From: Arthrobacter pascens
GTDB lineage: Bacteria > Actinomycetota > Actinomycetes > Actinomycetales > Micrococcaceae
Length of the DNA stretch: 64,000 bases
NCBI RefSeq assembly: GCF_030815585.1
Contig: NZ_JAUSWY010000001.1
Coordinates: 62,001-126,000, forward strand
Reading direction: 5' to 3'
Each line of letters begins with the position of its first letter. Positions within the stretch are counted from its first letter, which is position 1. This document shows, in pieces, positions 43,462 through 52,109 of this stretch. The translations under genes were made by a program, and so were the position numbers. The notes below the pieces were generated by a model. The model was not told where the DNA came from. It searched no databases and worked only from the letters and a program-made list of their open reading frames with translations.

Positions 43462-44283
43462 TCAGTAGCTTGCGGGCTCTTGACCATCGGCTGGCTTGAT
43501 AAAGGCAGCAGCGAGAGCCTCAGAGCCGCGGGCCAGGAGCGAAACATCCGCGCCGACCAGGATGAAGGACGCCCCGGCGGTTAGGTAAGAGCGGGCTGTG
43601 TCTTTGTTGAAGGCGTTGACGCCGGCAGGTTTACCTGCAGCTTCGGCCGCTTTGAGGCAGTGTTCGACGGCGGCGCGCACCTCTGGATGTTCCTGCTGGC
43701 CCAGCACTCCCAGGGAGGCAGCGAGATCTGAAGGCCCCAGGAAGATGGCGTCTACACCGTCCACGGCCAGGATCTCCTCCACGGCTCCGACGGCCGCACT
43801 GGATTCAATCTGCACGGTGAGGCTGATGGTTTCGGCGGCCCGGGCCAGATAGTCCGGGATGCGGTTCCACCGTGAGGCGCGGGCCAGGGCAGATCCCACG
43901 CCGCGTACGCCGTGGGGCGGGTAGCGGGTGGCGGCCACGGCAGACTCGGCCTCGGCGGCAGAGTTCACCATGGGAACCAGTAGGTTCTGCACGCCCAGGT
44001 CCAGGTACTGCTTGATTAACACTGTGTCGTTCATGGGGGGCCGGACCACGGTTTGTACGGGATAGCCGTTGACGGCCTGCAGCTGGGCCAGGATGGATTC
44101 GAGCCCGTTGGGGCTGTGTTCGGCGTCGATCAGGAGCCAGTCCAGGCCGGACCCTGCGCAGAGTTCGGCCACGAGCGGGCTGCCGGAGCACACCCACATT
44201 CCGGCCAGCGGCCTGCCTGCTTTACCGTTTTGATTGCGCAGGGCATCGCGGAAGGTGGTCTCTGGTTCTACTCGAAGCGGCAT
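43462..44283 (-). CDS. hpaI: 4-hydroxy-2-oxoheptane-1,7-dioate aldolase
   Basis: A 273-residue class II pyruvate aldolase (HpcH/HpaI family) from ATG 44283; the frame is open further upstream but that part overlaps hpaH. HpaI splits 4-hydroxy-2-oxoheptanedioate into pyruvate and succinate semialdehyde, the last step of homoprotocatechuate meta-cleavage. Marks: GLDWLLIDAEHSPNG, the metal-binding VQIESSAAV and AIFLGPSDLAASLG. It overlaps hpaH by 16 bases and is the last gene of the hpa operon. Confidence 0.93.
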   Translation of the reverse strand: MPLRVEPETTFRDALRNQNGKAGRPLAGMWVCSGSPLVAELCAGSGLDWLLIDAEHSPNGLESILAQLQAVNGYPVQTVVRPPMNDTVLIKQYLDLGVQNLLVPMVNSAAEAESAVAATRYPPHGVRGVGSALARASRWNRIPDYLARAAETISLTVQIESSAAVGAVEEILAVDGVDAIFLGPSDLAASLGVLGQQEHPEVRAAVEHCLKAAEAAGKPAGVNAFNKDTARSYLTAGASFILVGADVSLLARGSEALAAAFIKPADGQEPASY

Positions 44284-45053
44284 GTGACAGCTCCCAATGG
44301 TCCGTAGTCTGCGTGGACGGTATCGCCTTTGTAGACCCAGAGTGGGCGGGTGAACGAGCCGGCCAGGATGATGTCCCCGGCCGACAGGCTGTCGCCGTGG
44401 GCTGCGATCTTGTTGGCCAACCAGTGGACGCCGTTGGCGGGGTGGTCCAGGACACCGGCGGCCACGCCGGTTTCCTCGACGGTCTGGTTCTTGTAGAGGA
44501 TGGCTGAGATCCAGCGGAGGTCCACGGCATCCGGCCGGACCGGATTGCCGCCCACCACCATGGCGCCCATGGCGGCGTTGTCCGCGATGGTGTCCACAAT
44601 GGTCCGGCCCTCCATTTCGATCCGGGAGTCCAGGATCTCCAGGGCCGGGACCACATAGTCGGTGGCGTTCAGGACGTCGAAGATGGTGCAGCCGGGGCCT
44701 TTGAGGCCGTCTTTCAGGACAAACGCGAGCTCGACTTCCACCCGGGGGTGGGTGTACCTGTCCCACTGCACCGAGCATCCGGTGTCGAGCACCGCGTCAT
44801 CAAAGATGGCGCCATAATCCGGTTCGGTGATGCCGGTGGCCGCTTGCATGGCCTTGGACGTGAGGCCGATCTTGCGTCCAACAAGCTTCCGCCCGGCGTC
44901 CTCGTTGCGCCGCCGCCAGAGTTGCTGGACGGCGTAGGAGTCCTCCACCGTCATCTTCGGGTAGCGGGCGGTGAGTCGGGGGACAGGGGTCCGGCTCCTG
45001 CCTGCCTCCAGCAGTTCGTCGGCTATGGCCTCGATCGTCCTGGCATCCATCAT
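44268..45053 (-). CDS. hpaH: 2-oxo-hept-4-ene-1,7-dioate hydratase
   Basis: A 261-residue hydratase of the MhpD/fumarylacetoacetase superfamily. It adds water to 2-oxo-hept-4-enedioate (OHED) in homoprotocatechuate degradation. The start [20 protein letters not shown] and [18 protein letters not shown] are characteristic of HpaH; the metal-binding acidic residues are in [12 protein letters not shown], followed by GAMVVGG. Placed between hpaD and hpaI with short spacing (2 bases from hpaD), it is co-expressed with them. Confidence 0.93.
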
Positions 45054-45055
45054 GG

Positions 45056-46138
45056 CTACAGCTGCGCTCCCAGCTTGAATCCCGCGTTCTCGCCTTCGGC
45101 CCCTTCCTTGCGGGTGTAGGAGAAGCCGTCCGCGCCCACAGTGACGGCCATTTCGCTCCTTTCCTCGCGCACGATGACAGGCTGCGGGTTGCCGTCCAGG
45201 TCCAATACGAGCGAGGCCTCCGTGTACCAGGACGGGACCACCGGGTTACCCCACCAGTCGCGGCGCTGGTTGTCGTGGACGTCCCAGGTGATGGTGGGAT
45301 TGTCCGGGTCTCCGGTGTAGTAGTCCTGGGTGTAGATCTCGATACGGTGGCCGTCCGGGTCCAGGATGTAGAGGTAGAAAGCGTTGGATACGCCGTGGCG
45401 GCCGGGGCCGCGCTCGATCCGGTCGCTGATGCGCAGTGCGCCCATTTTGTCGCAGATCTGGATGATGTTGTGCTTCTCGTGCGTGGCGAACGCGATGTGG
45501 TGCATGCGCGGGCCGTTGCCGCCGGTCAGGGCGGTGTCGTGGACCGTCTGCTTGCGGTGCATCCACGCAGCATACGTGACGCCGTCGGAATCCTGGATGT
45601 CTTCGGAGACGCGGAAGCCCAAGTCCTCAAGATATTTACGGCCGCGGGGAACGTCGGGGGTGACCTGGTTGAAGTGGTCCAGACGCACCAGCTCGCCCGC
45701 GGAGTACAGGTCGTAGCGCTGGGTGAGGCGTTCCACGTGCTCTACCTCGTAGAAGAACTCGTACGGGAAGCCCAGCGGATCCTCCACCCGGACGGAATCG
45801 CCGATGCCCCTGGTGAAGCCCTCCTTGCGGCGCTCCACCCGGCAACCCAGTTCCTTGTAATACGCCTCTGCGGCGTCCACCTCAGCGGGGGACTTCACCC
45901 GGTAGGCGAACGCTGCGACGGCGGCCATGGGTCCCTTGCGGAGGACCAGGTTGTGGTGGATGAACTCCTCGAGGGAGCGCAGATAGATGTTGTTCCCGTC
46001 TTCCTCGGTGACGTGCAGACCCAGCAGGTCCACATAGAACGCCCGGGACTTGGCCAGGTCGGTGACCACGATCTCCATGTAGGCGCAGCGGACGATGTCC
46101 GGGGCAGGAACGGTGGGGGTAGGTACAAAGTCTGTCAT
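45056..46138 (-). CDS. hpaD: 3,4-dihydroxyphenylacetate (homoprotocatechuate) 2,3-dioxygenase
   Basis: A 360-residue extradiol dioxygenase from ATG 46138. It opens the ring of homoprotocatechuate to 5-carboxymethyl-2-hydroxymuconate semialdehyde. The metal ligands fall at His155 (RLDHFNQVT), His214 (RMHHIAFATH) and Glu267 (HRIEIYTQD), exactly the numbering published for the manganese enzyme MndD of Arthrobacter globiformis and the iron homologue HPCD. Second-sphere His200 (QTVH) and Tyr257 are also there. It may thus use manganese or iron; the sequence alone cannot tell. Third gene from the end of the hpa operon. Confidence 0.96.
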   Translation of the reverse strand: MTDFVPTPTVPAPDIVRCAYMEIVVTDLAKSRAFYVDLLGLHVTEEDGNNIYLRSLEEFIHHNLVLRKGPMAAVAAFAYRVKSPAEVDAAEAYYKELGCRVERRKEGFTRGIGDSVRVEDPLGFPYEFFYEVEHVERLTQRYDLYSAGELVRLDHFNQVTPDVPRGRKYLEDLGFRVSEDIQDSDGVTYAAWMHRKQTVHDTALTGGNGPRMHHIAFATHEKHNIIQICDKMGALRISDRIERGPGRHGVSNAFYLYILDPDGHRIEIYTQDYYTGDPDNPTITWDVHDNQRRDWWGNPVVPSWYTEASLVLDLDGNPQPVIVREERSEMAVTVGADGFSYTRKEGAEGENAGFKLGAQL

Positions 46139-46178: not shown

Positions 46179-47693
46179 CTATGCGCCGAATTTAGGGGTA
46201 TGCACAGTGCCGAGCGTGATGTGCACAGCCTGCTGGTCGGTGTAGAAATCGATGGAGCGGTAGCCGCCTTCGTGGCCAAGCCCGGAAGCCTTCACACCCC
46301 CGAACGGTGTGCGGAGGTCGCGGACGTTGTGGCTGTTGAGCCACACCATGCCGGCTTCCACGTTCTGCGAGAAGTTGTGGGCCCGGGTCAGGTTCTGGGT
46401 CCAGATGTAGGCGGCCAGCCCGTACTTGGTGTTGTTCGCCAATGCCAGCGCCTCGTCGTCGTTCTCGAACGGCGTGATGGCGACGACGGGACCGAAGATC
46501 TCCTCTTGGAAGATCCGGGCGTCCGGCGCGACGTCGGCGAACACCGTGGGGGCGATGTAGTTGCCCTCCGGGAGGTGCTCCGGGCGTCCGCCGCCGGCCA
46601 GCAGACGGCCTTCGGTCTTGCCGATTTCCACGTAGGAGGCCACCTTGGCGAAGTGCTCCGGGTGGACCAGGGCGCCCACCTGGGTTTTGGGATCGTGCGG
46701 ATCGCCGACCACTATGTTCCTGGCGCGGGCCGCGTACTTTTCGCAGAACTCGTCGTAGATGGCGCGCTCCACGAGGATCCGGGAGCCGGCCGTGCAGCGC
46801 TCGCCGTTGAGCGAGAAGACGCCGAACAGGGCGGAATCGATCGCGGCGTCCAAATCGGCGTCGGCGAAAACGACACACGGGGACTTGCCGCCCAGCTCCA
46901 TCGAGAGGCCCTTGAGGTTGGTGGCCGCGTTTCGGAAGATGGTCTGCCCGGTGGTGGTCTCGCCGGTGAAGGAGATCAGCGGCACGTCCGGGTGCTTGAC
47001 CAGCGCGTCTCCGGCTTCCTCGCCCAGGCCGTTGACCAAGTTGAACACTCCGTCCGGCAGGCCTGCGTCCTTGAAGATGGTGGCCCACAGCGAGGCGGAG
47101 AGTGGGGTGAACTCGGCGGGCTTGAGCACCACGGTGTTGCCCGTGGCCAGCGCCGGAGCCAGCTTCCAGGACTCCAGCATGAACGGGGTGTTCCACGGCG
47201 TGATGAGCCCCGCGACGCCGATCGGCTTGCGGTTTACGTAGTTGATCTGTGAGCCGGGCACCTTCATGGCGTCGTCGAACTGCGCCACGATCAGGTCCGC
47301 GAAGAAGCGGAAGTTCTCAGCGGCGCGCAGGGCCTGGCCCTTGGCCTGGGTGATGGGGAGCCCGGTGTCGAAGGTTTCCAGTTCCGCAAGGCGTTCTTCC
47401 TGGGCTTCGACTGCGTCCGCGATCCTGTTGAGGATGCGTGCCCGTTCGCGGGGCTTCATCTTCGGCCAGGGGCCGTTGACGAAGGCTTCGCGGGCGGCCG
47501 CGACGGCCAGGTCGATGTCCTCTTTCTGGCCGGCGGCGGCGGTGGCGTAGTTGGTATTGGACACGGGATCCAGGACATCGAAGGTCATGCCGCCCACGGA
47601 GTCAACGAATTCGCCGTTGATGTAGTGCTGGATGTGGGTGGGCAGGTCCTGCGGCACATAGTGCGTGTTTGCTGCAACGGATGCGAACGTCAT
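46179..47693 (-). CDS. hpaE: 5-carboxymethyl-2-hydroxymuconate semialdehyde dehydrogenase
   Basis: A 504-residue aldehyde dehydrogenase from ATG 47693, with AAGGAAAC as ribosome site. It oxidises the ring-cleavage aldehyde with NAD to the dicarboxylate. Family marks are the general base and cofactor motifs in SMELGGKSPCVVFADADLD, the catalytic Cys in NGERCTAGSRILVERA, and the PWNTPFMLESWKLAPALATG NAD region. Position upstream of hpaD identifies the substrate within the wide ALDH family. Confidence 0.94.
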   Translation of the reverse strand: MTFASVAANTHYVPQDLPTHIQHYINGEFVDSVGGMTFDVLDPVSNTNYATAAAGQKEDIDLAVAAAREAFVNGPWPKMKPRERARILNRIADAVEAQEERLAELETFDTGLPITQAKGQALRAAENFRFFADLIVAQFDDAMKVPGSQINYVNRKPIGVAGLITPWNTPFMLESWKLAPALATGNTVVLKPAEFTPLSASLWATIFKDAGLPDGVFNLVNGLGEEAGDALVKHPDVPLISFTGETTTGQTIFRNAATNLKGLSMELGGKSPCVVFADADLDAAIDSALFGVFSLNGERCTAGSRILVERAIYDEFCEKYAARARNIVVGDPHDPKTQVGALVHPEHFAKVASYVEIGKTEGRLLAGGGRPEHLPEGNYIAPTVFADVAPDARIFQEEIFGPVVAITPFENDDEALALANNTKYGLAAYIWTQNLTRAHNFSQNVEAGMVWLNSHNVRDLRTPFGGVKASGLGHEGGYRSIDFYTDQQAVHITLGTVHTPKFGA

Positions 47694-47740: not shown

Positions 47741-48457
47741 TCAGAGGTTCCTGGCCTGGCGCAGGTAGGCGTCCAGGGTGGCGGAGCGGTGCAGGCGGGC
47801 GGCTTTCTCGATGTCGTCAGCGCCGGCTCCCGACTCGATGAGCTGGAGCAGTTCCTCATGTTCCTCCACCGAGTCGTGCGCACGGCCGGGGACAAAACGG
47901 AACGTGGAGGACCGCAGCGATGCCAGCCGATTCCAGCCCCGATGGACCAGGTCAAGGATGTGCGGGTTGGGGCAGTGCTCAAACAGGACGCTGTGGAAGT
48001 CCTGGTTAAGCCGCGTGAACCGCACGGGGTCGAAGTGCTGCAGGCAATCCCGCATTTCAGCGTTCACCGCCCGGGCCCGGGCAATGTCGTCGGCACCGAT
48101 GAGCGGTGCGGACAGTGCGGTGGCTGCACCCTCCACGATGCTCAGGGTCTGCATCGTGTACAGGTACTCGGTGGGATCGATCCCCGCCACCGTGGCACCC
48201 ACATTGCGCTCGAACTTCACGAGGCCTTCGGCTTCCAGCCGGCGGATGGCCTCGCGGACCGGCACCACGCTGAAACCCAGATCCTCGGCGATCTTGGCCA
48301 GCACCAGCCTGTACCCCGGGGTATAAGTGCCTCCCACGATCCGGGCCTTGACTGCGGCGTAGGCCTGCTCGGATTTGCTTCCGGCAGTGCTGCTGGCAGT
48401 CTTCCTGCCAGCGCCCGTGCCAGTGGTCGTACCTGCGGCCGTGGCTGTCTCAGTCAT
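47741..48457 (-). CDS. GntR (FadR subfamily) regulator of the hpa operon
   Basis: A 238-residue FadR-type GntR protein from ATG 48457, overlapping the FAH-RraA gene by eight bases. After a Ser/Thr-rich N-terminal tail of about 25 residues, the winged helix is SEQAYAAVKARIVGGTYTPG with ISEDLG-like IAEDLGFSVVPVREAIRRLE, and the FCD ligand domain runs to the end (FDPVRFTRLNQDFHSVLFEH; DSVEEHEELLQLIESGAGAD). Such proteins often respond to pathway acids. It probably binds TCGTATACGA upstream of the operon, which it thus would autoregulate. Confidence 0.9.
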   Translation of the reverse strand: MTETATAAGTTTGTGAGRKTASSTAGSKSEQAYAAVKARIVGGTYTPGYRLVLAKIAEDLGFSVVPVREAIRRLEAEGLVKFERNVGATVAGIDPTEYLYTMQTLSIVEGAATALSAPLIGADDIARARAVNAEMRDCLQHFDPVRFTRLNQDFHSVLFEHCPNPHILDLVHRGWNRLASLRSSTFRFVPGRAHDSVEEHEELLQLIESGAGADDIEKAARLHRSATLDAYLRQARNL

Positions 48458-49943
48458 TGGCTTTGCCCGCTTCCCATTCCTCGTACTTGGCGCGCCAGGC
48501 GGCCCCCAGCGGGTACAGGCCGTCAACGCTGTGGCCCCGTTCCACCATTTCGGCGATAAACGATTCCTCACGTTCCTGAATGATGGATTCGTTGGCCACT
48601 TCCTCTGCCAGCGCCGGCGGGATCACCAGGATGCCGTCCGAGTCGGCCACGATGATGTCGCCGGGCTGCACGGTGGTGCCGCCGCAGGCGATGGTGATGT
48701 CGGTGTCCCATGGGATGTGGCGTCGGCCCAGCACAGCCGGATGCGGGTTGGAATAATATGTGGGCATATCCATCGCTGCGACTGCTGAGAAGTCCCGCAC
48801 GCCGCCGTCGGTAATGATGGCTGCCGCGCCGCGGACTTGGGCGCGGAGGGCCAGGATGTCGCCGATGGTGCCGGTGCCCTTCTCCCCGCGGGCTTCCATG
48901 ACCAGGATTTCACCTTCGTTGACAGAGTCGATGGCGCGTTTCTGGGCGTTGAAGCCGCCGCCGTGGGTCTTGAAGAGGTCTTCGCGGTTGGGGACGTAAC
49001 GGAGGGTTCGGGCCAGCCCGACCACGCGCCTGTCCGGCCGGGTAGCGGTGAGGCCGTCGATGCTGACGTTGTTGAGGCCCCGCTTGCGCAGTTGGGAGGA
49101 CAACGTGGCCGTGCAGACACTTTCCAGCTTCGCCTTCAGCTCGGGTGACAGAGCGGATACCGGGGCTGCGTTTTCCGCCGGCAATCCGGCCGCTTCCCGT
49201 GAGCCGTAGGCCTCCTCCCGCTGCAGGTCATCGGTCTTGGGCTGCGCACCAAAGTCTGCGAACGGCGTCGAGCCTTCCTCCACCCGGGTAATCAGACGGC
49301 CGCTGGTCAGACCAGGGCCCGTGTTGCCGGCCGCCGTCGTAGCTACTTCAACCTCGACGACGTCGCCCGGCTTGGCCACGGAGGCGCCGGCGGGTGTGCC
49401 GGTGAGGATGATGTCCCCTTCTTCGAGGGTCAGCAGCTGCGAAAGGTCCGCCACCAGCCGGGCGAAGGGGAAGAGCAGGTCCTCCGTGGTGTCGTCCTGG
49501 ACGAGGTCGCCGTTATGCCAGGTGCGGATGCGCAGGCCGGCGGGGTCGACGGCGTCTGCCGGGATGAGTCCCGGTCCCACAGGGGTGAAGCCGTCGCCGC
49601 CCTTGGACCGGAGGTTGGAGCCTTTGTCCGCATGGCGGAGGTCGTAGACGCCGAGGTCGTTGCTGGCGGTGACCCACTCCACGTGGCTCCAGGCGTCGTC
49701 GATGCCGACGCGGCGGGCGGGCTTGCCGATGATCAGGGCAACCTCGCCCTCGAAGCCCAGCAATTCGCAGCCCGAAGGGCGCTCCACAGCGGAACCGGTC
49801 AGCGAGAGGGAGGAGGAGGGCTTGAGGAAGTAGGAGGGCTGGGCCGGGGTGCGTCCGCGTTGGGCCGCGCGGCTGGGGTAGTTGATGTGCACGGCGATCA
49901 CCTTGCGTGCCGCCGCCAAGGTGTCGTCAGTGACCTGCTCCAC
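48450..49943 (-). CDS. HpaG-like fusion: fumarylacetoacetase-family domain with RraA-family domain
   Basis: A 497-residue fusion starting at GTG 49943 (GAGGAGACAG upstream). Residues 30-225 are a fumarylacetoacetase (FAH) domain with the metal triad Glu65, Glu67 (GFEGEVAL) and Asp101 (GVYDLRH). Residues 266-497 form an RraA-like domain of the aldolase/decarboxylase fold with Asp362-X20-Arg383-Asp384; the acidic residue expected three positions after that Asp is Ala. Canonical HpaG has two FAH halves that decarboxylate and isomerise ring-cleavage products. Here one half appears to be replaced by the RraA domain. First gene of the hpa operon. The catalytic split between the domains is inference. 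Confidence 0.85.
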   Translation of the reverse strand: MEQVTDDTLAAARKVIAVHINYPSRAAQRGRTPAQPSYFLKPSSSLSLTGSAVERPSGCELLGFEGEVALIIGKPARRVGIDDAWSHVEWVTASNDLGVYDLRHADKGSNLRSKGGDGFTPVGPGLIPADAVDPAGLRIRTWHNGDLVQDDTTEDLLFPFARLVADLSQLLTLEEGDIILTGTPAGASVAKPGDVVEVEVATTAAGNTGPGLTSGRLITRVEEGSTPFADFGAQPKTDDLQREEAYGSREAAGLPAENAAPVSALSPELKAKLESVCTATLSSQLRKRGLNNVSIDGLTATRPDRRVVGLARTLRYVPNREDLFKTHGGGFNAQKRAIDSVNEGEILVMEARGEKGTGTIGDILALRAQVRGAAAIITDGGVRDFSAVAAMDMPTYYSNPHPAVLGRRHIPWDTDITIACGGTTVQPGDIIVADSDGILVIPPALAEEVANESIIQEREESFIAEMVERGHSVDGLYPLGAAWRAKYEEWEAGKAND

Positions 49944-49961: not shown

Positions 49962-49981
49962 TACGAAATCGTATACGAAAA
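49962..49981. promoter_or_regulatory. GntR-type operator upstream of the hpa operon
   Basis: TCGTATACGA (49969-49978) is a perfect palindrome; a related TACGAAAT half lies next to it. The GTATAC core is typical of FadR-subfamily GntR sites. It lies 26 bases upstream of the FAH-RraA start. Confidence 0.65.
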
Positions 49982-50100: not shown

Positions 50101-50126
50101 TAGAACGTAGAGTTCTAATATAGAAC
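50101..50126. promoter_or_regulatory. Operator upstream of the flavin monooxygenase gene
   Basis: TAGAACGTAGAGTTCTA (50101-50117) has perfect 6-bp arms separated by 5 bases; a further half site TAGAAC starts at 50121, 20 bases from the first. It differs from the GntR site of the hpa operon, so another regulator likely controls the monooxygenase. Confidence 0.6.
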
Positions 50127-50165: not shown

Positions 50166-52109
50166 GTGCAGTTCCACCACCACGGCTACGTATCCGGTGA
50201 CCCGCGGGTCCAACCGGTGGCCGGCGCCGGCATCGACCGGCCCGCGGAGCTCCCCGACAAGGTCGACGTGCTCATTGTGGGCACCGGACCTGCGGGCGTG
50301 CTCACCGCCGCGCAGCTTTCCCAGTTCCCCGGAGTTACGACGCGCATTGTGGAGCGCCGCGCCGGTCGGCTGGCGATCGGCCAGGCCGACGGCATCCAGG
50401 CCCGCAGCGTCGAGACGTTCCAGGCGTTCGGTTTCGCCGAGCGGATCATCGCGGAGGCGTACCGGATCACCGAGATGGCGTTCTGGAAGCCGGACACCAA
50501 GGACCCCTCGCGCATCGTCCGGACTGCCCGCACCGTGGATGACCCTGCAGGCATCAGCGAGTTCCCGCACCTCATCGTCAACCAGGCCCGCGTGCTGGAC
50601 TACTTCGCCGAGTTCATGGCGAACTCGCCCACGCGCATGGTGCCCGATTATGGTTTTGAATTCGTCAGCCTCAACGTCACCGGCGGGGGAGAATACCCCG
50701 TCACCGTGACGCTTCTGCGCACTGCCGGCCCCGAGGAGGGCCAGGAGCGCATTGTCCGGGCCAAGTACGTCGTGGGCGCGGATGGCGCGCGGAGCAAGGT
50801 GCGGGAATCGATCGGCTGCACGCTGGCCGGCGACCAGGCCAACCACGCCTGGGGCGTCATGGATGCCCTCGCCGTCACGGACTTCCCGGACATCCGCACG
50901 AAGTGCGCGATCCAGTCGGGCACGGGCGGCAGCATCCTGCTGATCCCGCGCGAAGGGGGCCATCTTTTCCGCATGTACGTTGACCTTGGCGAGGTTGATC
51001 CGAACGATCACGGCGCCGTGCGCAGCACCACCATCGAGGAGATCATCGGCAAGGCGAATGAGATCCTCCACCCTTACACGCTGGCCGTACGCAACGTCGC
51101 CTGGCACAGCGTGTATGAGGTCGGCCACCGCTTGACGGACAGGTTCGACGACGTCCTTCCCGACCAGCGGGGCGCCCGCACGCCGCGCGTGTTCATCACC
51201 GGCGATGCGTGCCATACACACAGCGCCAAGGCGGGCCAGGGTATGAACGTGTCCATGCAGGACGGCTTCAACCTGGCGTGGAAGCTCGGACATGTGCTCG
51301 AGGGCAGAAGCCCGGAGAGCCTGCTGTCCACGTACTCGGCCGAGCGGCACGTGGTCGCGAAGAACCTCATTGACTTCGACAAGGAGTGGTCAACGCTCAT
51401 GGCGAAGAAACCCGACGAGTTCGCAGACCCCTCCGAGCTCGAGAACTTCTACGTCAGCACCGCCGAGTTCCCCGCCGGATTCATGACCCAGTACGCCCCT
51501 TCCATGCTTGTCGCCGCCTCTGAACACCAGGCCCGGGCCACCGGCTTCACCGTCGGAAAACGCTTCAAGTCCGCGCCCGTTGTGCGGGTGGGCGACACCA
51601 ACCCGGTGCACCTCGGCCACCACGCCACGGCGGACGGCCGGTGGCGGATCTACGTCTTCGCCGACGCGGCAGTCCCCGCCATGGGACAGCAGGCGGTGCC
51701 GTCGCCCACCTCGGATTTCGCCGAGTGGATCGCAAACTCGCCGGAATCGCCGCTGGCCGCCACGCCGTCGGGCGCCGATCCTGACGCGTGGTTCGACGTG
51801 AAGGTGATCTACCAGCAGGATCACACGAGAATCGACATCGGCGCCGTGCCGGCTGTTTTCAAGCCCCGGGTCGGACCGTTCCGGCTCACCGACTACGAGA
51901 AGGTCTACGCCAGCGATCCTGCGGCGGACATCTTCGAGCTGCGCGGCCTCGACCGCGGCGGTGTCGTCGTTGTCGTGCGGCCGGACCAGTACGTGGCCCA
52001 TGTCCTGCCGTTGACGGCGACGGCGGAGCTCGCCGGGTTCTTCGCACCCCTCCTACCGGCCCGCCGACCCGAAGCGGTCCGCTCAGAAAAACCCTTCGCT
52101 CACTTCTGA
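50166..52109 (+). CDS. FAD-dependent aromatic hydroxylase (phenol 2-monooxygenase / 3-hydroxybenzoate 4-hydroxylase type)
   Basis: A 647-residue class A flavoprotein monooxygenase from GTG 50166 (GTGAGGAAAG upstream). The FAD motif is VDVLIVGTGPAGVLTAAQLS, the DG motif KYVVGADGARSKVR, and the FAD-ribityl motif FITGDACHTHSAKAGQGMN. The C-terminal thioredoxin-like domain of this size class, shared by phenol 2-monooxygenase and MobA (639 residues), fills the end. MobA makes protocatechuate from 3-hydroxybenzoate. Being divergent from the hpa operon, the enzyme might instead hydroxylate a hydroxyphenylacetate to homoprotocatechuate; neither substrate is proven. Confidence 0.85.
   Translation: MQFHHHGYVSGDPRVQPVAGAGIDRPAELPDKVDVLIVGTGPAGVLTAAQLSQFPGVTTRIVERRAGRLAIGQADGIQARSVETFQAFGFAERIIAEAYRITEMAFWKPDTKDPSRIVRTARTVDDPAGISEFPHLIVNQARVLDYFAEFMANSPTRMVPDYGFEFVSLNVTGGGEYPVTVTLLRTAGPEEGQERIVRAKYVVGADGARSKVRESIGCTLAGDQANHAWGVMDALAVTDFPDIRTKCAIQSGTGGSILLIPREGGHLFRMYVDLGEVDPNDHGAVRSTTIEEIIGKANEILHPYTLAVRNVAWHSVYEVGHRLTDRFDDVLPDQRGARTPRVFITGDACHTHSAKAGQGMNVSMQDGFNLAWKLGHVLEGRSPESLLSTYSAERHVVAKNLIDFDKEWSTLMAKKPDEFADPSELENFYVSTAEFPAGFMTQYAPSMLVAASEHQARATGFTVGKRFKSAPVVRVGDTNPVHLGHHATADGRWRIYVFADAAVPAMGQQAVPSPTSDFAEWIANSPESPLAATPSGADPDAWFDVKVIYQQDHTRIDIGAVPAVFKPRVGPFRLTDYEKVYASDPAADIFELRGLDRGGVVVVVRPDQYVAHVLPLTATAELAGFFAPLLPARRPEAVRSEKPFAHF

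Follow-up and report, generated by a model that had tools for sequence, protein, structure and literature searches.

We analysed a 64,000-nucleotide stretch of the Arthrobacter pascens genome (NCBI RefSeq assembly GCF_030815585.1, contig NZ_JAUSWY010000001.1, positions 62,001 to 126,000; hereafter the window), whose minus strand encodes at 48450..49943 a 497-residue protein that joins a fumarylacetoacetate hydrolase (FAH) domain to an RraA-like domain. This fusion is a conserved, functionally coherent enzyme of a catalogued, apparently uncharacterised family, and it very likely acts in the homoprotocatechuate (4-hydroxyphenylacetate) meta pathway. For the division of labour we favour, at about even confidence and from sequence comparison, a FAH half that acts as the decarboxylase and an RraA half that acts as a dienol tautomerase in place of HpaF, of the HpaG isomerase half, or of both.

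The reading frame was assigned a GTG start, picked from the sequence, with GAGGAG just upstream. A Pfam scan placed the FAH domain at residues 14-202 (49338..49904; PF01557 FAA_hydrolase, 168 bits) and the RraA-like domain at residues 278-440 (48624..49112; PF03737, 106 bits); PF01557 matched once, giving no second FAH domain, and no match to PF02962 (HpaF) was found in the protein. In a profile search residues 3-497 matched PRK12764 (NF009399, "fumarylacetoacetate hydrolase family protein") with 898.6 bits against a curated cut-off of 444. The fused architecture is therefore already catalogued by NCBIfam over its full length, under a family name that gives no reaction; what we add to that entry is the pathway linkage and an active-site analysis of each half. 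The fusion exceeded the cut-off of the PRK08245 RraA subfamily (NF006093, 238.8 vs 208 bits) and stayed below those for HpaG (PRK15203, 116.6 vs 811 bits), for the LigK/PcmE 4-carboxy-4-hydroxy-2-oxoadipate (CHA) aldolases (TIGR02798, 76.8 vs 304.5; NF006731, 84 vs 179 bits) and for the RNase E regulator RraA (NF006875, 48.4 vs 136 bits). Its FAH half alone fell below the cut-offs for the C-terminal half of HpaG (HpaG-C; TIGR02303, 140.3 vs 276.4 bits) and the N-terminal half (HpaG-N; TIGR02305, 90.9 vs 228.65 bits).

An AlphaFold2 model of the fusion had a mean predicted local distance difference test score (pLDDT) of 90.5 and a predicted template modelling score (pTM) of 0.53; each fold is modelled with confidence, while the placement of the two halves relative to each other is not, and the linker between them (residues 227-262, 49158..49265) is in part of low confidence. 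Relatives of RraA are known as trimers, and most FAH proteins form dimers. Each half matched solved structures of its own family in a structure search. The top Foldseek match of the FAH half was Thermus HpcE (1wzo), and the closest solved relative of the RraA half is Streptomyces coelicolor RraAS2 (5X15), titled as a member of the RNase ES inhibitor family, a 270-residue chain that matches the RraA half only. Among homologues that have a name, the protein is annotated as a plain FAH family protein, as a catechol-pathway hydratase or, by JGI, as 5-oxopent-3-ene-1,2,5-tricarboxylate (OPET) decarboxylase/2-hydroxyhepta-2,4-diene-1,7-dioate (HHDD) isomerase. A literature search over titles and abstracts, with subscription papers thinly covered, found no paper describing an FAH-RraA fusion.

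Fusions above the family cut-off occur in 63 of 248 genomes of the order, a recurrence that argues against a chance joining, in 5 of 296 genomes of a phylum sample and in 0 of 14 control genomes. The fusion reported by the first-pass annotation is thus real, with two Pfam domains, two folds and a repeated occurrence across the order. Its distribution follows that of HpaD: 61 of the 248 genomes have an HpaD above 400 bits (a line drawn after the list was seen), and in all 61 the fusion lies no more than 4788 bases away on the same contig. Only 2 of the remaining 187 genomes have a fusion, one (G459, locus L089) on a contig that stops right after it and the other (G521, L227) with just a partial HpaE match at the locus. 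At the curated HpaD cut-off of 321.4 bits there are 67 genomes, made up of the 61 with the fusion and six (group f77) with HpaD scores of 324-333 bits and a stand-alone RraA relative in place of the fusion.

The operon in the window reads, on the minus strand, fusion, GntR, HpaE, HpaD, HpaH and HpaI, with the fusion at its head. From 425 relatives we kept 80 loci from named genomes; an FAH match directly precedes RraA on the same strand in 76 of these (all but L146, L151, L160 and L181), and HpaE, HpaD, HpaH and HpaI are all present in 70, five of the other ten being on contigs shorter than 11 kb. The operon is plasmid-borne in Rhodococcus sp. NBC_00297 and in Paenarthrobacter aurescens TC1, whose plasmid gene table is incomplete and does not list HpaD. 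Growth on 4-hydroxyphenylacetate and on homoprotocatechuate is reported for Arthrobacter sp. Rue61a, and a meta pathway has been proposed for this strain (PMC3534580). With the complete linkage to strong HpaD matches and the HpaE/HpaD/HpaH/HpaI operon, the proposal that the fusion takes the place of HpaG in this pathway, the pathway of E. coli HpaG/HpcE (1GTT, 1I7O; OPET decarboxylase/HHDD isomerase), holds up well.

HpaF appears to be absent from this version of the pathway. PF02962 gave zero matches in the A. pascens genome at E <= 10 and none in 246 of the 248 genomes of the order, and searching the 80 loci with E. coli HpaF gave no hit at E <= 1e-6. We considered whether HpaF might be hidden elsewhere and rejected this, as the two genomes of the order with HpaF-like stretches (three in total) have no other pathway genes within the surrounding 20 kb. 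In E. coli the operon encodes both FAH halves in one chain together with HpaF; in P. aeruginosa it holds two FAH genes and HpaF, and in Erwinia a 1281-base, HpaG-sized FAH gene and HpaF (six of 131 HpaF-bearing plasmid records were examined; Cupriavidus necator N-1, which has HpaF outside an hpa operon, was left out of this comparison). Three Deinococcus hpa operons (L202, L228, L229) resemble the actinobacterial one in having a single FAH with E-x-E beside HpaD, but they have HpaF where the actinobacteria have RraA, and their FAH retains NYxDHxxE. The actinobacterial operon has one FAH fused to RraA and no HpaF. Gene content thus supports FAH plus RraA standing where the HpaG N-half, the HpaG C-half and HpaF stand elsewhere, and the simplest view is that RraA replaces HpaF, either alone or together with the HpaG isomerase half.

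To examine the active sites we used 118 distinct full-length fusions selected by their likeness to the window protein; a full-length match was obtained from 138 of 152 loci. In the FAH half the metal triad E65, E67 (49743-49751) and D96 (49656-49658; together 49656..49751, minus strand) and K114 are invariant in 118/118. The triad aligns with the E-x-E...D of HpaG-C; HpaG-N has neither E-x-E nor the His-x-x-Glu dyad. At the dyad position the fusion has R25-x-x-Q28 (49860..49871, minus strand), with R25 in 117 of the 118 and Q28 in 115, the other three (L053, L056, L124) having Glu. By eye, His-x-x-Glu is present in 18 of the 23 aligned rows that are neither fusion nor HpaG-N, including HpaG-C and the Deinococcus FAH. 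The FAH half therefore carries the E-x-E...D and Lys of the metal-dependent FAH superfamily without the dyad of the hydrolase type. The exception at R25, L124:3297-4937, is on a contig labelled Stenotrophomonas maltophilia and combines a generic FAH start with a remainder that is the actinobacterial fusion, the junction falling near a conserved GDVILTGTPAG stretch; it is probably an assembly chimera or contamination. Without it, the FAH triad and the D-R-D residues of the RraA half stand at 117/117.

Human FAHD1 has been described as both an oxaloacetate tautomerase and a decarboxylase (PMC12176266). The proposal for this enzyme is that the metal, together with Lys123 and Gln109, drives tautomerisation and decarboxylation and that the His-Glu dyad makes the hydroxide for hydrolysis, with the dyad water as one possible helper in the last ketonisation (PMC8398924). 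K114 of the fusion would correspond to Lys123. Judged by these residues, the FAH half seems unsuited to hydrolysis, while either decarboxylation or tautomerisation would fit. It is 37-38% identical to E. coli HpcE (1I7O) over the aligned part, the C-terminal half in the VIA alignment. The two proteins differ in that HpcE has two FAH halves beside HpaF, while the fusion has one FAH plus RraA without HpaF, and in that His-x-x-Glu of HpcE is Arg-x-x-Gln in the fusion.

The RraA half has the motif D362-X20-R383-D384 of RraA-type aldolases (48792..48860, minus strand), with all three residues identical in 118/118 fusions, and the first-pass annotation was right to report it. It had also pointed to Ala at a position where aldolases have an acidic residue, and had read the metal site as altered. 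The Ala is there (A387, 48783..48785, minus strand; Ala in 106/118 fusions, Glu in 4/118). The acidic residue, however, belongs to the alternative motif, G-X20-R-D-X2-E/D, of Thermus and yeast relatives; Mazurkewich et al. (2014) reportedly described this and D-X20-R-D as two separate motifs. In a phmmer alignment with the 4-hydroxy-4-methyl-2-oxoglutarate (HMG)/CHA aldolase of Pseudomonas putida F1 (3NOJ, residues numbered from the start of the alignment), D362, R383 and D384 fall on D102, R123 and D124, and A387 falls on Thr127. An enzyme with the same D-X20-R-D thus has no acidic residue at that position either, and the altered site was rejected: by its sequence, the RraA half has a complete and unaltered aldolase-type metal motif. 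The existence of two motifs among RraA-type aldolases is stated in PMC5065237, as is that the P. putida enzyme is both an aldolase and an oxaloacetate decarboxylase. Unlike the RraA half, to which it is 22% identical, the P. putida enzyme is an unfused aldolase and belongs to the protocatechuate 4,5-cleavage pathway. Given the full conservation of these residues and the linkage to HpaD in 61/61 genomes, the RraA half is very probably catalytic in the pathway.

A divergent FAH-RraA fusion, 31% identical, lies on a plasmid of Rhodococcus erythropolis BG43 (L196:8001-9212) beside a VOC-family protein and a hydroxylase gene. By eye it keeps the FAH metal triad and the Arg/Gln pair and has lost the D-X20-R-D of the RraA half; in view of its identity, its different gene context and its degenerate RraA motif it was rejected as a close relative and not counted as a member.

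Unfused relatives, with 53-62% identity to the RraA half, occur in a second, ring-cleavage gene cluster that encodes an FAD monooxygenase, an amidohydrolase-2, a DUF3500 protein, an HpaD-like dioxygenase, RraA, HpaH, HpaI, FAH and RidA (L160:2091-11300, L098:3489-12725, L217-L223 and L096). Not all members are present at each locus, and the FAH of this cluster has an intact His-x-x-Glu dyad. We found stand-alone RraA beside HpaH and/or HpaI at 11 loci, with an FAH on the same contig that is clear at 8, weak at 1 and not found at 2. In all six f77 genomes with a stand-alone RraA operon, the contig that holds it also carries a separate FAH gene at a distance of 15-30 kb; L098 and L160 have one within the locus, L146 has a weak match (38%), and none was found in the locus DNA examined for L151 and L181. 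FAH and RraA are thus found together repeatedly, whether as one protein or as two. HpaF was likewise absent from the six f77 genomes, from G465 (the genome of L098) and from L146, L151, L160 and L181. In Streptomyces halstedii (L148) an FAH-RraA fusion lies within a similar second-type cluster.

In the mechanism that we propose, the fusion would act between HpaE and HpaH, a position supported by the linkage. The FAH half would coordinate a divalent metal with E65, E67 and D96 and would decarboxylate OPET with the help of K114. The RraA half would bind Mg2+ and the 2-oxo/2-hydroxy acid end of the substrate through D362, R383 and D384, and would protonate the dienolate in the tautomerisation of 5-carboxymethyl-2-hydroxymuconate (CHM) to OPET and/or of HHDD to 2-oxohept-3-ene-1,7-dioate (OHED). 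Decarboxylation is placed in the FAH half because this half has the triad and scores higher with the HpaG-C model than with the HpaG-N model, and RraA is placed among the isomerases mainly because a metal-type FAH is constant across the operons compared above while the isomerases vary. In HpcE, the C domain with the metal triad is assigned as the decarboxylase and the N domain as the isomerase (PMC12718150).

Several points count against this assignment. To our knowledge no RraA-fold isomerase is known, and by analogy a relative that is an aldolase and oxaloacetate decarboxylase would favour RraA as the decarboxylase. The likeness to HpaG-C may just reflect a fast-evolving HpaG-N; moreover, the FAH half is not a plain HpaG-C, since it has lost the His-x-x-Glu dyad that both HpaG-C and the Deinococcus FAH keep. 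According to PMC12718150, the N and C assignment of HpcE is based on structure and not on assay, and the complex of OPET decarboxylase (OPETD) and HHDD isomerase (HHDDI) decarboxylates 60-fold better than OPETD and 12-fold better than HHDDI, by which measure HHDDI alone is not the weaker decarboxylase. The same source reports that CHM also isomerises spontaneously, at a slower rate, and HpaF may then need no replacement. A tautomerase of the 4-oxalocrotonate tautomerase (4-OT) family scored above the cut-off once in the A. pascens genome, at 3.53 Mb, and may serve as a helper.

The first-pass annotation had given decarboxylation to the RraA domain. It is possible, if rather doubtful, that OPET is decarboxylated by the RraA half, whose Mg2+/Arg site would stabilise an enolate, and that the FAH half is the isomerase. 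The intact D-X20-R-D in 118/118 fusions would fit this, as would the decarboxylation of oxaloacetate by the P. putida enzyme with the same motif (PMC5065237), the loss of the His-Glu dyad from the FAH half, the ability of an FAH fold to tautomerise, as in FAHD1 (PMC12176266), and the presence of RraA alone next to HpaH and HpaI in the second cluster. However, the FAH half keeps a metal triad that the assigned isomerase half of HpaG is without, OPET would have to be cleaved at a vinylogous carbon, unlike the C3-C4 bond of oxaloacetate, and in most clusters with stand-alone RraA a metal-type FAH is encoded separately on the same contig. For this last reason RraA as the lone decarboxylase of FAH-less operons was rejected, and comparison of the homologues with separate genes gave no sign of RraA replacing the decarboxylase. 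We do not favour RraA as the decarboxylase, as the metal-binding FAH half resembles the assigned decarboxylase half of HpaG and the missing parts are isomerases. Overall, the earlier picture holds in its main lines, but it errs on the metal site and probably also on the half to which it gives decarboxylation.

Nor do we think it likely that the FAH half does all of the chemistry, with HpaH and spontaneous steps, and that the RraA half is a partner for assembly or activity. HHDDI does raise OPETD activity 60-fold in the Acinetobacter complex (PMC12718150), Deinococcus operons have a single FAH, though with HpaF, and the BG43 fusion keeps its FAH triad yet has lost the RraA motif; a scaffold, on the other hand, would not require D362, R383 and D384 to be invariant in 118/118, and RraA is found without a fused FAH as well. 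A side role for the RraA half, either aldol cleavage or oxaloacetate decarboxylation near the end of the pathway or regulation of RNase ES like RraAS2, is very improbable: an HpaI-type aldolase is already present in the operon, the scores with the RNase E regulator and LigK models are far under their cut-offs, and the linkage is to HpaD.

The origin of the fusion was examined with a tree of 37 FAH rows. The FAH half joins the HpaG lineage with support of 97/92 when three long-branch rows are left out and 91/88 when they are kept, and in the best tree it stands beside all HpaG halves, outside the split between N and C. Approximately unbiased (AU) tests, run without the three long rows, rejected neither a grouping with the N-half (p 0.297) nor one with the C-half (p 0.197). 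The domain swap in HpaG proposed earlier agrees with this placement in the HpaG lineage, and the trees neither establish nor reject it. RraA may have replaced one half of a two-FAH HpaG, or it may have been joined to an ancestral single FAH of the kind found in Deinococcus. In the RraA tree, examined for a single origin of the fusion, fused and stand-alone members are intermixed with low support, a picture that fits fission as well as several fusions.

According to PMC12718150, the two tautomerisations and the decarboxylation in the middle of the 4-hydroxyphenylacetate pathway were assigned enzyme by enzyme only in 2025, and the way in which the two HpaG domains work is still ambiguous. An unrelated fold in one half, in genomes without HpaF, makes the three activities separable by truncation and point mutation, and would show whether the RraA fold, known from aldolases and an RNase regulator, can serve as a tautomerase. 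Tentatively, the RraA half could be a metal-dependent dienol tautomerase, the first isomerase of this fold; across the actinobacterial homoprotocatechuate pathway it would have displaced both HpaF and HpaG's isomerase half, and it would also work unfused in a second ring-cleavage pathway.

The other genes of the operon in the window, all on the minus strand, are a GntR/FCD regulator (47741..48457) whose ATG overlaps the end of the fusion gene; HpaE, the 5-carboxymethyl-2-hydroxymuconate semialdehyde (CHMS) dehydrogenase (46179..47693, 665.8 bits vs a cut-off of 638.35); HpaD, 3,4-dihydroxyphenylacetate 2,3-dioxygenase (45056..46138, 448.2 bits vs 321.4); the HpaH hydratase (44268..45053, 367.4 bits vs 351.5); and an HpaI-type aldolase (43462..44283), for which HpaI is the best family match at 321.3 bits, under the cut-off of 368.8. 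On the plus strand a divergently oriented, phenol-hydroxylase-like FAD monooxygenase (PF01494 and PF07976) occupies 50166..52109. It is found near the fusion in many relatives and is likely to be the ring hydroxylase of the pathway. Between it and the fusion lies the palindrome TCGTATACGA (49969..49978), a likely candidate for a GntR operator. Among 106 relatives, 21 have GTATAC upstream of the fusion, against 3.0 expected from simple shuffles, and in 13 of these 21 it lies inside ATCGTATACGAT. An inverted repeat, TAGAAC-gtaga-GTTCTA, was also seen by eye at 50101-50117, ahead of the monooxygenase start.

Elsewhere in the A. pascens genome two FAH genes lie within about 8 kb of a second HpaD-like protein (G000:C1:2124170-2125048; 301.5 bits, under the 321.4 cut-off), and the group may belong to another meta-cleavage pathway. 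Outside the order and in the same phylum, L103:5165-7891 encodes a stand-alone RraA followed by a DapA-like protein and an HpaD-like dioxygenase; the best model for the DapA-like protein, 'HpaI-NOT-DapA', is below its cut-off, and the dapA cut-off is exceeded. FAH-like stretches with 32-37% identity were also seen in unannotated 'phage' records (H76-H80, e.g. Listeria phage LM 4-11-1), and are possibly host DNA.

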